Source: Kitasatospora terrestris
GTDB lineage: Bacteria; Actinomycetota; Actinomycetes; Streptomycetales; Streptomycetaceae
DNA: 64,000 nt
Assembly: GCF_039542905.1 (NCBI RefSeq)
Contig: NZ_BAABIS010000001.1
Span: 62,001-126,000 of the forward strand
Direction of reading: 5' to 3'
The position numbers and the translations under genes were made by a program. A model generated the notes under the pieces. The model had not been told where the DNA came from and ran no database searches. It saw only the letters and a list, made by a program, of their open reading frames with translations. How positions within the stretch are numbered: position 1 is the stretch's first letter; every line of letters begins with the position of its first letter. Shown here piece by piece: positions 23,270 through 27,754 of the stretch.

Positions 23270-23858
23270 TCGCCCAGCATAACCGGTGCAAAATCCTGAC
23301 TGTCCGTCAATTGTTGTTCTTTGTGCTGCAGTTGATCCGGTCCATCGTGCGCCTCAGCGGCTCCCTGACGGGGCCGGAGGCCCAGCCGGACGGCGTGTCC
23401 GGTCCACTACAAAGCGTTGCTGCCCGGAGCGGCGCCAACGGGCTTCCTCGCCGAATCCACTCATGGGAGCGAATTCCGACAATTCCGCTGCGCATCCACC
23501 AGGTCACCTGATAGGGGCCACCGCTGTGCAGAGTGCGTATCGACCCATGGGCGGTCAATGACCGCTCAGCTGGGGCTGTGGCAGATTGAGTGATCGTCTC
23601 GGCAGATTGCCTGCCCGCCGACATGAGACCGAGATGCCGCGTGGCCGTCTACATCGGCAGACCGCCGCCCACCCGCCCGGGCTGGTCATTCCGCGTCAGC
23701 GGATCGCGCAGAACGTGGAGCGGCGCCCCGCCGACCGTCCCCGTCTCGACTCGGTGCGCCGGGTGGTCGCGCAGATGCCGGCACAGCGGCACTTCGCGCA
23801 ACCGGCGGACACCGTGCTGGCCGAACGGGACGCGACCGAGCAGAACGCCACCGCCCGC
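23270..23858. other. Upstream region of the conservon; no supported gene
   Basis: The first 70 bp are clearly less GC-rich than the surroundings (for example CAATTGTTGTTCTTTGTG) and probably contain the cvn promoter. From 23590 the DNA leads into the truncated IS630 gene; the segment GGCAGATTG occurs twice (near 23580 and 23602). Open frames here carry no domain I recognise. Confidence 0.4.
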
Positions 23859-24219
23859 TTCGAGGACGAGGCCGGGCAGTCCATGACTCCGCCGCGCGCC
23901 AGGACCTGGGGCCGGATCGGCCAGACCCCGGTTGCGAGGGTGCGGGGCCAGGGTTCCGGGCGGGTGTCGATGGCGGGCATGACCTGCTACAAGCCCGGCG
24001 AGCGGTCCCGGCTGATCTACGCGATCCGCGAGTATCGCGGCCGCAAGGACGAGCCGAAGGGCTTCGGCTGGCGAGACTTTCGCGACTTGATCGTCCGCAC
24101 CCGCATCCCGCTCGGAGGCCCGATCGTCCTGGTCTGGGACAACCTCCGTCTACACCTGACCGTCGGCATGCGTGCGTTCATCGAGACGAACACCGAGTGG
24201 CTGACGGTATTCCACCTGC
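23859..24219 (+). pseudogene. IS630-family transposase, first part (interrupted)
   Basis: The frame reads FEDEAGQSMTPPRARTWG, then GMTCYKPGERSRLIYAIREY and GPIVLVWDNLRLHLTVGM, covering two acidic catalytic regions of the DDE domain. It stops at WLTVFHL, where the ISL3 element begins. The normal N-terminal helix-turn-helix part is not recognisable upstream, so the gene was probably already 5'-truncated. Removing 24220-26509 joins this part to the C-terminal part in frame. Confidence 0.85.
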
Positions 24220-24275
24220 TGGTTTTGTTCATGAGAACGGGTTCTGGTCCAACTTCTGCGGTCGGCGACGCTGCG

Positions 24276-24713
24276 TCAGCTTTCGAGGTCGAAGAGCGGG
24301 ATGTCCATGGAAGGCGGCGGCGGGTCAAGCACCGCGCGAAGCGCGGCAACCATGGCGAGCCAGCGGTGCGCGTCGCCAGGTTCCACCCAGTTCGATACCA
24401 ATCCGTCGTCGTCGGAGGCGATTCGAGTGAGGGCTTCAGCGGCAAGTACCCGAAGATCGGTGGAGAACTCCGGCATGAGCGTCTCTGGGCCGCAGACTGG
24501 ATCGACTGGTTGGCCGCCCGGGCACTGCGAGGCCAGTACGGCCGCTGCCCCGACCGCCTCCTCCGCTTCGCTGAGCTCGTCAGTCGCGTTGACAGTGCGG
24601 ACGAGGACGCCACGGATCAGGGCTTCGCGTTCCTCGGCCCCGGCGTCGTCCAGGGCGTTGGCGAAATCCGCGGCCGTGTCGTTGTCGAATGGACCGGTGC
24701 CCCAAGTACCCAT
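24276..24713 (-). CDS. DUF4259-domain protein, passenger gene of the ISL3 element
   Basis: ATG 24713 is preceded by GAGGAG, and the protein is 145 residues. It opens MGTWGTGPFDNDTAADFAN, the diagnostic start of DUF4259 proteins, followed by an acidic helical body (REALIRGVLVRTVN; SEAEEAVGAAAVLASQCPG) and a short FDLES tail. The function of the family is unknown; some members lie near polymorphic-toxin or immunity genes, as the SUKH-4 gene nearby recalls. The gene ends 18 nt from the inner end of the left inverted repeat, so it moves with the element. Confidence 0.9.
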   Translation of the reverse strand: MGTWGTGPFDNDTAADFANALDDAGAEEREALIRGVLVRTVNATDELSEAEEAVGAAAVLASQCPGGQPVDPVCGPETLMPEFSTDLRVLAAEALTRIASDDDGLVSNWVEPGDAHRWLAMVAALRAVLDPPPPSMDIPLFDLES

Positions 24714-24769
24714 GGCGTTCTCCTCGCATCGCAGTGCGGTGATCATGGCACCGGTGACCGACAACGGCG

Positions 24770-26362
24770 TTATGAAGCGAGCAAGACACGTTTCCGCAGC
24801 AGGTCGAAGCCAGCGCGGCCGTACATCTGGCGCTTGATCATTTTGATTCGGTTGACGTGGCCCTCGACGACGCCGGAGCTCCACGGCAGCGTCAGGCCGG
24901 CGGTGACGGCGGCGAGATCGCGTTCGAGGCCGTTGACGAAAGCGTGAAGGCTGGGTAGGTCGTCGGCGCGAACCGCCTTGATCCACTCTGGAAGCTGGTC
25001 GCCCTGGAGCTGGGTGAGCATCTGCCCGAAGGTGCGGACGTGCCCGGTGAGGGCATCCAGCTCAGGGCAGCCGGCGACGACGGACTTGAGCTTCAGGCCA
25101 TCGCCCTCCGGCAGGGTGTCGGGGTGAGTCAGGATCCAGCCGGTGACCGTGCGCGGGGATGGCGGACGGGCGGCCGGTGCTGTCGGGGATGTGCGGAACG
25201 GCTGGAGGTAGGCGCGGACGGCTCCGTAGCCGCCGGTGTAGCCGTGTGTCCTGATCTCTTCCCAGAGGGTCCAGGCGTTCGTGCAGCCTTCGGCCCATCG
25301 CACGTGCAGGTGGGCCTTGAAGTCGTCGAGTTTGGTCCTGCGGTTCTGCCACTGCCCGTGGAACAGGTCTTCCGGCCTCGCGGCGTCGGCCAATTGCTGG
25401 ACGGTGCGGTAGGTCATGCCGAGCTGGCGCTGGATCGAGCGTCGGCTGTGGCCGGCGGCCAGCAGCGCGTGGACGGTGGCGTGCTTGGCACGGGTGCGGT
25501 CGGCGAACCGGTGCCCGGTGGGCCATGGCGACTCGCTCTCGGCCGGTGCCGGAGCTTTCTCCGGCACCGGCTCGGCGAAGGTCGCACGGAGGCACGAGCG
25601 GTGGCGGGAGACGCACCGTTCGGCTGCTTCGCCGAGGTTGCGCCAAAGGTGGAATCGGTCGGCGACCTGAACCGCGGTGGGTGCCCCGGCCCTGGCGCCC
25701 TCGGCGAAGAACGAGGCACGGTCACGGCAGACGACCTCGATCCCCGGGCGTTCGGCCAGCCAAGCCGCAACAGTGCCTGCTTCGCGATCCGGCAGCAGGT
25801 CCACCGGCCTGCCGGTCTCGACGTCGACCAGCACTGTCCCGTAGACACGGCCCTTGCGCATCGCGTACTCGTCGACGCCGACCACACGCGGGACCGCTGG
25901 CTGGGGTTCAGGGAGGGCGTCGACCAGCCGCAGGACCGTGTTCCGGCTGACCCTGGCGCCGACGACGTCGGCCAACCGGGCACCGGCGCGGCCGGCCAGG
26001 GCGAGGCCGACCTCGGCCAGCACCGACCGCATTCGCTCGGTGCGCTGGCTGTGCCGCCGGGTCAGCCCCGCGACCTGCTCGACGAACGTACGCCGCCCGC
26101 AGGAGACGACTTCGCACGTGAAGCGCCGGACGCGAAGTCGGAGCATCACCCGCCGTCCCGCCACGGGGAGGTCAGCGGGAAACCGCAGGTAAGAGCCATG
26201 CACGCGCTCCGACCAGGTCCCGCAGCCTGGGCATCCAGCTCCAGTCGTCCGGCATCTGACACCAACTCGGATCACCTCGCCATCGTCTTGCACCGATTCC
26301 ACCCTGATCCTCGGATCCGCCAGGAAGAGCAGCCCTTCCAACTGGAGCAATAGCTCGCGCAC
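24770..26362 (-). CDS. ISL3-family transposase
   Basis: GTG 26362 begins a 530-residue protein. The N-terminus has a zinc-ribbon Cys set (VRCRTTGAGCPGCGTW and FTCEVVSCGRRTFVE), then a helix-turn-helix region. Catalytic acidic residues fit VVGVDEYAMRKG, VVCRDRASFFAEG and GVVEGHVNRIKMIKRQMYG. The internal segment near residue 300 (GHSRRSIQRQLGMTYRTVQQ) is a second DNA-binding helix pair. All parts of the family are present and the frame is intact. It should mobilise the element with its DUF4259 gene. Confidence 0.95.
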   Translation of the reverse strand: MRELLLQLEGLLFLADPRIRVESVQDDGEVIRVGVRCRTTGAGCPGCGTWSERVHGSYLRFPADLPVAGRRVMLRLRVRRFTCEVVSCGRRTFVEQVAGLTRRHSQRTERMRSVLAEVGLALAGRAGARLADVVGARVSRNTVLRLVDALPEPQPAVPRVVGVDEYAMRKGRVYGTVLVDVETGRPVDLLPDREAGTVAAWLAERPGIEVVCRDRASFFAEGARAGAPTAVQVADRFHLWRNLGEAAERCVSRHRSCLRATFAEPVPEKAPAPAESESPWPTGHRFADRTRAKHATVHALLAAGHSRRSIQRQLGMTYRTVQQLADAARPEDLFHGQWQNRRTKLDDFKAHLHVRWAEGCTNAWTLWEEIRTHGYTGGYGAVRAYLQPFRTSPTAPAARPPSPRTVTGWILTHPDTLPEGDGLKLKSVVAGCPELDALTGHVRTFGQMLTQLQGDQLPEWIKAVRADDLPSLHAFVNGLERDLAAVTAGLTLPWSSGVVEGHVNRIKMIKRQMYGRAGFDLLRKRVLLAS

Positions 26363-26509
26363 AGCCCAGAACCATCAGCCCGAACGAGGTCAGCACCGTC
26401 AGTTTCCGGACGATCTCGCGAGACCTCTCAGCAAGACCGACAGTGACAGGGAGTAGCCACACCACAGAAGGTGAACCAGAACCCGTTCTCATGAACAAGG
26501 CAAACCTGC

Positions 26510-26700
26510 CCACCTACGCACCCGACCTCAACCCGCAGGAGGGCATCTGGTCGCTGGTCAAGCGCGAGATCGGTAACCTCGCCGCCGCGGACCTCACTCA
26601 GATCACCCGAGCCGTAAAACGTCGGCTCAAGAGGATCCAGTACCGCCCGGATCTCGTCGACGGCTGCCTCGCGGCCACCGGCCTGGCTCAGGAGGACTGA
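26510..26700 (+). pseudogene. IS630-family transposase, C-terminal part
   Basis: The frame reads PTYAPDLNPQEGIWSLVKRE and IGNLAAADLTQITRAVKRRL, with the third catalytic Glu in P-Q-E-G-I-W, and ends at TGA 26700. It continues the part ending at 24219 once the ISL3 element and one ACCTGC copy are removed. An ATG at 26491 inside the IS end could in theory start a short peptide. Confidence 0.85.
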
Positions 26701-26706
26701 CGTGAC

Positions 26707-27219
26707 TCATTCCTCCTCCCAGTTCGCGTAGTCGCCCATCGCCACGTCGTCGCACAAGGTCTCCCACAACCCGTTGTCTGCGAGTGCGGTGTCATCGAGC
26801 GCGGTGAGGAGCCGGCGAAGCTCGTCCGCCGCCTCCTGGAACCTGTCCTCCTCGTCTTCCTCGTAGAACGGGAATCGGGCGATGGTGGCCGCGACGCACT
26901 GGTGGAAGGCTCCGAGGTCCCTGTTCACATGCCAGGCGGTCGCGGAATCGGTCTTGGGGATCTGGACGACGCGACCCGAGGCCACGTCGATGCCGAGCCG
27001 ACCGAACAGGCCGCTGGTCCCGAAGACGACCAACCCCGACTCACCGATCCGGCCCAGCAGCGTCGCCTCGGTCAGGGGCTGGTACTCATAACCGATCAGC
27101 CCTGCTGGCACACCGATCTTTCGCAGATCGGCGGCGATCGAGGCGGGCACCTCCGGCGAGCAGCCGATACGGGCCACGCCGTACTGGGGCAACGGCAGCA
27201 ACGGGAAGTCTCGGATCAT
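26707..27219 (-). CDS. SUKH-4-type immunity protein
   Basis: The protein has 170 residues, from ATG 27219. The SUKH fold is indicated by GLIGYEYQPLTEATLLGRIG, LVVFGTSGLFGRLGIDVASG, RVVQIPKTDSATAWHVNRDL and a helical C-terminus FYEEDEEDRFQEAADELRRL. SUKH proteins neutralise cognate toxins of polymorphic toxin systems, often nucleases or deaminases. No toxin gene is visible beside it, so it is an orphan immunity gene here. Directly upstream lies an 18-copy perfect 15-bp tandem repeat. A repeat-encoded reverse frame ends overlapping its ATG (ATGA). Confidence 0.8.
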   Translation of the reverse strand: MIRDFPLLPLPQYGVARIGCSPEVPASIAADLRKIGVPAGLIGYEYQPLTEATLLGRIGESGLVVFGTSGLFGRLGIDVASGRVVQIPKTDSATAWHVNRDLGAFHQCVAATIARFPFYEEDEEDRFQEAADELRRLLTALDDTALADNGLWETLCDDVAMGDYANWEEE

Positions 27220-27250
27220 GTGAGCATCATCCTCGTGCTCCGGACAGACC

Positions 27251-27520
27251 GGGAAGGCGCGAGCCGGGAAGGCGCGAGCCGGGAAGGCGCGAGCCGGGAA
27301 GGCGCGAGCCGGGAAGGCGCGAGCCGGGAAGGCGCGAGCCGGGAAGGCGCGAGCCGGGAAGGCGCGAGCCGGGAAGGCGCGAGCCGGGAAGGCGCGAGCC
27401 GGGAAGGCGCGAGCCGGGAAGGCGCGAGCCGGGAAGGCGCGAGCCGGGAAGGCGCGAGCCGGGAAGGCGCGAGCCGGGAAGGCGCGAGCCGGGAAGGCGC
27501 GAGCCGGGAAGGCGCGAGCC
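27251..27520. repeat. Eighteen perfect tandem copies of a 15-bp unit
   Basis: The unit GGGAAGGCGCGAGCC is repeated 18 times without a single mismatch, 270 bp in all. Because 15 is a multiple of three, all six frames stay open; the forward strand would encode (EGASR)n and one reverse frame (RLAPS)n. It begins 32 bp upstream of the SUKH-4 start codon. Perfect identity of all copies suggests recent expansion by slippage or recombination, so copy number probably varies between strains. Confidence 0.97.
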
Positions 27521-27754
27521 GGGCCTCCGCCACCGCCGAGGGAGCCCCACCGACATCACCCGTTCAAGTTCAGTAGCAGCCTTACCTCCTGCTCCTGGTC
27601 TTCCGACAGCCAAAGCATCGCCATCGGGTCTGATGGGAGGTGTACTACTTCCACTTCCACCCGGCACACGGAATACAACATGACCCGGATACGACGCTGT
27701 ACCAGTTGTTCAGACTGGCCCCCTCAAACCTTCGGGCTGAACCGTTCCGGGCTT

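Follow-up and report, generated by a model that had tools for sequence, protein, structure and literature searches.

An ISL3-family element with a DUF4259 passenger gene lies between IS21-type ends inside an IS630 gene of Kitasatospora terrestris

How many mobile elements make up an insert that splits a transposase gene in two, and does an unrelated gene inside it belong to what moves? The question is raised by a locus of Kitasatospora terrestris within the 64,000-nucleotide stretch analysed here (the window, positions 62001-126000 of the 8.57-Mb assembly), which we compared with relatives from Streptomyces and Kitasatospora. The first-pass annotation, made from the sequence alone, had described a 2,284-bp ISL3 element nested in an IS630 transposase gene, bounded by long inverted repeats and a 6-bp duplication (ACCTGC) and carrying a DUF4259 gene with its own GAGGAG site. 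The edges of this insert are real: both copies of ACCTGC were read directly in the sequence, the arms at 24225-24262 and 26461-26498 are 92% complementary over 38 nucleotides, and the insert in the IS630 gene amounts to exactly 2,284 bp plus one ACCTGC. The two IS630 halves, one on each side, both match IS630 models. After removal of 24220-26503 plus one ACCTGC, the gene was aligned to uninterrupted IS630 genes and ran straight across the junction in most homologues tested. These come from other genomes, are 71-86% identical, none with the insert, and display a single-copy site, so that they stand for the empty IS630 copies the annotation had proposed to look for and bear out its statement that removal restores the gene. 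The IS630 gene was already a 5'-truncated fragment, homology to intact copies beginning at about 23858. A search of the window's genome found no second full copy of the 2,284-bp unit. Inside the unit we found the predicted DUF4259 gene (88.6 bits against a cut-off of 22.8 for PF14078), with GAGGAG 6 nucleotides ahead of its ATG, and the ISL3 transposase gene; there are no others, and since istA and istB are absent the unit itself is not an IS21. The features of the locus are given in Table 1.

Table 1. Features of the interrupted IS630 gene and its insert, in window coordinates
Feature	Position	Strand	Basis
IS630-family transposase gene 5' part (DDE_3), truncated and interrupted	23858-24219	+	PF13358/NF033545 matches; homology to intact IS630 copies from about 23858
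ACCTGC, left copy of 6-bp target duplication	24214-24219	.	Sequence; single-copy site in uninterrupted homologues
IS21-type end arm TGGTTTTGTTCATGAGAACG (12 bp end + 8 bp)	24220-24239	+	Agrees with IS21-type and cassette ends at 18/20 positions; same exact 20-bp offset from ISL3 as at 29/108 ISL3 ends
ISL3-family element proper, 2,244 bp (GGTTCTGG ... CCAGAACC), transposase then passenger	24240-26483	-	Ends set by relatives with 8-bp duplications
ISL3 terminal inverted repeat, passenger side	24240-24262	+	Arm comparison and relatives
DUF4259 passenger gene, 145 aa; GAGGAG at 24720-24725	24276-24713	-	PF14078 88.6 bits; dN/dS 0.08-0.32 in ISL3-borne pairs
ISL3 transposase, up to 530 aa; internal IS21-like helix-turn-helix region aa 300-392	24770-26362	-	NF033550 349 bits; NF033546 partial 42 bits; PF01610, PF14690
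ISL3 terminal inverted repeat, transposase side	26461-26483	-	Arm comparison and relatives
IS21-type end arm, inward reading TTGCCTTGTTCATGAGAACG	26484-26503	-	17/20 match to IS21-type ends
ACCTGC, right copy of 6-bp target duplication	26504-26509	.	Sequence; uninterrupted IS630 homologues
IS630 transposase gene 3' part	26510-26700	+	IS630 model matches; colinear homologues

The transposase is an ISL3-family member above the curated cut-off (349 bits against 180, NF033550), and the ends on which it acts were located from its relatives. Terminal inverted repeats beginning with GG, GGTTCTGG, are present at both ISL3 ends and start 20 bp inside the boundary first drawn for the window unit. The genome G041 contains two copies that are 99.8% identical over an aligned 1.9 kb, each of about 2,283 bp with the transposase and DUF4259 genes. 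Their 8-bp duplications, TCAAATGA for one copy and TCATATGA for the other, are independent and lie immediately next to GGTTCTGG and CCAGAACC. Nine further copies have 8-bp duplications at GGTTCTGG, eight of them exact and one with a single mismatch, and this length has been reported for ISL3 members elsewhere (PMC6305408). Because the duplications of the relatives abut the GGTTCTGG ends, we placed the limits of the ISL3 element proper there; the outer 39-bp repeat was ruled out as its terminus, the ends and duplications of the relatives sitting 20 bp further in. The window's own copy has no 8-bp duplication (6 of 8 positions mismatched), and given this its transposition is suggested by the relatives.

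The outer 20 bp on both sides (TGGTTTTGTTCATGAGAACG and TTGCCTTGTTCATGAGAACG) correspond to a separate set of ends, TGGCTTTGTTCACGAGAACGGACAGC...TGTTCAC. Ends of this kind delimit cassettes of about 0.04-2.7 kb that lack a transposase and frequently have exact 6-bp duplications; their genes encode a short-chain dehydrogenase, an EamA transporter, a GNAT protein, an SMI1/KNR4-like protein and others. The same ends also delimit an IS21 whose istA and istB exceed the curated cut-offs (L265 in genome G058; IstA 236 bits, IstB 259 bits) and which is flanked by an exact 6-bp duplication, CTTGCC; this is the only IS21 found with both ends and an exact duplication, a second having a degenerate repeat. 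Because the same ends flank an istA/istB element and cassettes with 6-bp duplications, we assign ACCTGC and the 20-bp arms to an IS21-type element and not to ISL3. The annotation thus had the edges of the insert right, and its single ISL3 element has to give up the outer 20 bp per side and the 6-bp repeat; when the outermost repeat is taken as the boundary, two elements can be mistaken for one. A literature search with the arm sequences gave nothing relevant. Transposase-free cassettes with IS21-type ends are widespread in Streptomyces (L176, L178-L182, L215-L220, L226 and L232), many with 6-bp duplications, and their cargo includes dehydrogenase, EamA, GNAT, SMI1-like and p23-like genes, among others. 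The IS21 with both ends has a third gene as well (L265:875-1465, 196 aa), so that it too has a passenger. In the window's genome, three loci (L120, L121 and L122, at about 7.8 kb from each chromosome end and at 689 kb) consist of 42-50 bp palindromes made of two IS21-type arms only, one pair being flanked by the 6-bp duplication CGCTGC; these are possibly remnants or miniature elements.

Out of 108 ISL3 ends, 29 have an arm lying exactly 20 bp outside them (12 bp of arm plus the 8-bp duplication). One of the 108 ends had its arm at 21 bp, the other offsets tested gave none, and shuffled flanks gave 0.01. In six ISL3 copies, the window's included, arms lie on both sides without an 8-bp duplication. 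The simplest reading of these positions is that an IS21-type end is a preferred ISL3 insertion site, so that the ISL3 family would include an IS homing, at a fixed position, to other mobile elements. On this reading, the copies armed on both sides would have lost what lay between two such ends. We ruled out that the arms reflect a conserved ISL3 target preference only, since they also occur as the ends of complete IS21-type cassettes and of an IS21. Over an internal region, residues 300-392, the transposases of this ISL3 clade are weakly similar to the IstA helix-turn-helix of IS21. This region as the cause of the targeting is unsupported, because all the ISL3 transposases compared have it, even those without such targets. 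The L237 protein, considered as an ISL3 with an IstA domain, is not an ISL3.

DUF4259 is a true passenger inside the transposing unit, because the two near-identical G041 copies hold both genes between independent 8-bp duplications. A gene unrelated to transposition thus lies within the moving unit in both copies, as in a transporter IS. In at least 10 other loci, on plasmids and chromosomes, an ISL3 transposase of 50-92% identity is followed by DUF4259 at a distance of about 55-60 bp, and in most of them the far inverted repeat was found beyond this gene. The annotation had named a true end between the two genes as the result that would overturn its passenger claim; none was found. Its question whether DUF4259 always travels with the transposase is answered in the negative, since other genes are carried by close relatives and the majority of DUF4259 genes are ordinary chromosomal ones: the gene is present in 47 of 70 genomes of the genus and adjoins an ISL3 transposase in only a few cases. 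In a DUF4259 tree (145 aa, moderate support) the copies borne by ISL3 fall into three groups interspersed with chromosomal genes, and on the transposase tree the presence of DUF4259 requires at least five changes. DUF4259 is for the most part an ordinary gene of the chromosome, and ISL3 recruited it about three times. At L119, DUF4259 groups with that of the window and the transposase with the other group, a discordance between trees that indicates exchange, the means of which we infer rather than observe.

Passengers other than DUF4259 occupy the same position. When 41 loci were clustered by how similar they are in the stretch from the transposase to the far end, 17 clusters of slot content were obtained, a few single-locus clusters resting on weak ORFs. 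The passengers include DUF4259, SUKH-3, SUKH-6-like, DUF6368, GNAT, HIT, glyoxalase-like and several unnamed families, and transposases 87-92% identical to that of the window carry different single genes in this slot. So this ISL3 lineage appears to pick up and spread small genes. With a passenger that varies from copy to copy on transposases this similar, cargo gain or swap by an IS becomes a directly testable question. Mechanistically, the element would work as a transporter IS whose transposase acts on the GGTTCTGG ends, so that any single gene between the transposase and the far end rides along.

Taken as a whole, the locus probably holds three nested mobile elements, an IS21-type element in IS630 and an ISL3-DUF4259 element in an IS21-type end, with the interior lost. 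The truncated IS630 gene would have received an IS21-type element or cassette, giving the 6-bp duplication; an ISL3 with DUF4259 behind its transposase would have entered 12 bp inside an IS21-type end, its preferred target; and what lay between the two IS21-type ends was probably lost, given that each end is down to 20 bp and the 8-bp ISL3 duplication is missing. This collapse could have occurred, for example, if the ISL3 transposed to the opposite end or recombined with another copy located there. A one-step origin, in which an IS21-type cassette with an ISL3-DUF4259 payload entered IS630 after mobilization in trans by IstA and IstB of a full IS21, predicts the same anatomy. Transposase-free cassettes with these ends are widespread, and at L062, L088 and L116 a larger IS21-type cassette with duplications encloses ISL3-DUF4259. 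Movement by IS21 proteins is doubtful, however, because the unit retains only 20 bp per end and lacks the second TGTTCAC motif seen at about 33 bp in most complete cassette ends, and we regard this origin as possible but distinctly weaker than the nested history. We consider it quite improbable that all 2,284 bp form a single element, as the annotation had assumed, with an ISL3 sublineage adopting the 20-bp arms as its new termini and generating 6-bp duplications. Exact 6-bp duplications do flank arm-ISL3-arm in the window (ACCTGC) and in L046 (ACCAAT), and six copies are armed at both ends, but these arms also border istA/istB in L265, as well as cassettes that have 6-bp duplications and no ISL3; in close relatives there is a single arm, or none, and 8-bp duplications occur at GGTTCTGG; and the arm-ISL3-arm copies differ in their passengers, several lacking any outer duplication.

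A different doubt concerns the passenger, which might merely have been trapped beside the transposase without being selected as cargo. The frequency of DUF4259 on chromosomes (47/70 genomes) and the freedom with which close relatives differ in their passengers would fit such trapping. On the other hand, separate ISL3 lineages have the gene in intact form and under purifying selection (dN/dS of 0.08-0.32 between ISL3-borne copies compared in pairs), and recruitment of this family happened about three times, so that we think trapping rather unlikely. A broader and speculative proposal is that an ISL3 lineage of Streptomyces acts as a one-gene shuttle, with a permanent, exchangeable cargo slot, that homes to IS21-type cassette ends, the two unrelated families trading and spreading small immunity-like and accessory genes.

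What DUF4259 does for its carriers was approached by comparison. It had no hit among the PADLOC curated defence models and no PDB relative by sequence, and its moderately confident predicted model (all helical, pLDDT 72) gave no PDB fold match below an E value of 0.001. Our guess is that it may be accessory cargo of benefit to the host. The annotation had thought of a toxin- or immunity-type function. An immunity-type role is possible, since the sister passengers include members of the SUKH family, whose proteins are known to act in immunity (PMC3482391), whereas a toxin is less likely because DUF4259 is carried alone, without a partner gene. The parallel with the SUKH immunity families (PMC3482391) lies in the SUKH-3 and SUKH-6 passengers of the same slot; DUF4259 itself has no demonstrated link to them, and other passengers are of metabolic type.

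Several parts of this system have known counterparts. ISPst2 is an ISL3-family element with a permease and an ArsR regulator as passengers, in one unit of about 3 kb with 8-bp target duplications (PMC6305408); here there is one passenger, which varies between copies, and the preferred target is an IS21-type end. Transporter ISs, a term found in PMC3129680, likewise carry genes unrelated to transposition, whereas here one lineage has about 17 alternative single passengers in one slot. The IS21-type cassettes resemble the mobile insertion cassettes (MIC; PMC3129680) in having IS ends and passengers and no transposase, and differ in being landing sites for ISL3 as well. According to a passage in PMC8269217 citing Partridge and Hall 2003, IS5075 and IS4321 target the terminal inverted repeats of the Tn21 family, and thus also insert at a fixed position inside the terminal repeat of another element; these belong to the IS1111 family, whereas here an ISL3-family DDE transposase and IS21-type ends are involved. 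ISL3 passengers, mobile cassettes and end-targeting ISs are each known already; no report of their combination was found in the open-access literature, and it looks new.

The surroundings of the IS630 fragment have features of their own. Upstream, the sequence joined to the fragment (window 23640-23858) is a 76% match to a region at 8.32 Mb of the same chromosome, which suggests an older rearrangement. A SUKH-4 immunity-family gene directly adjoins the fragment, and the region upstream of this gene contains a 15-bp tandem repeat, CCGGGAAGGCGCGAG, in 18.3 perfect copies (window 26707-27219 and 27249-27523 cover the gene and the upstream repeat).
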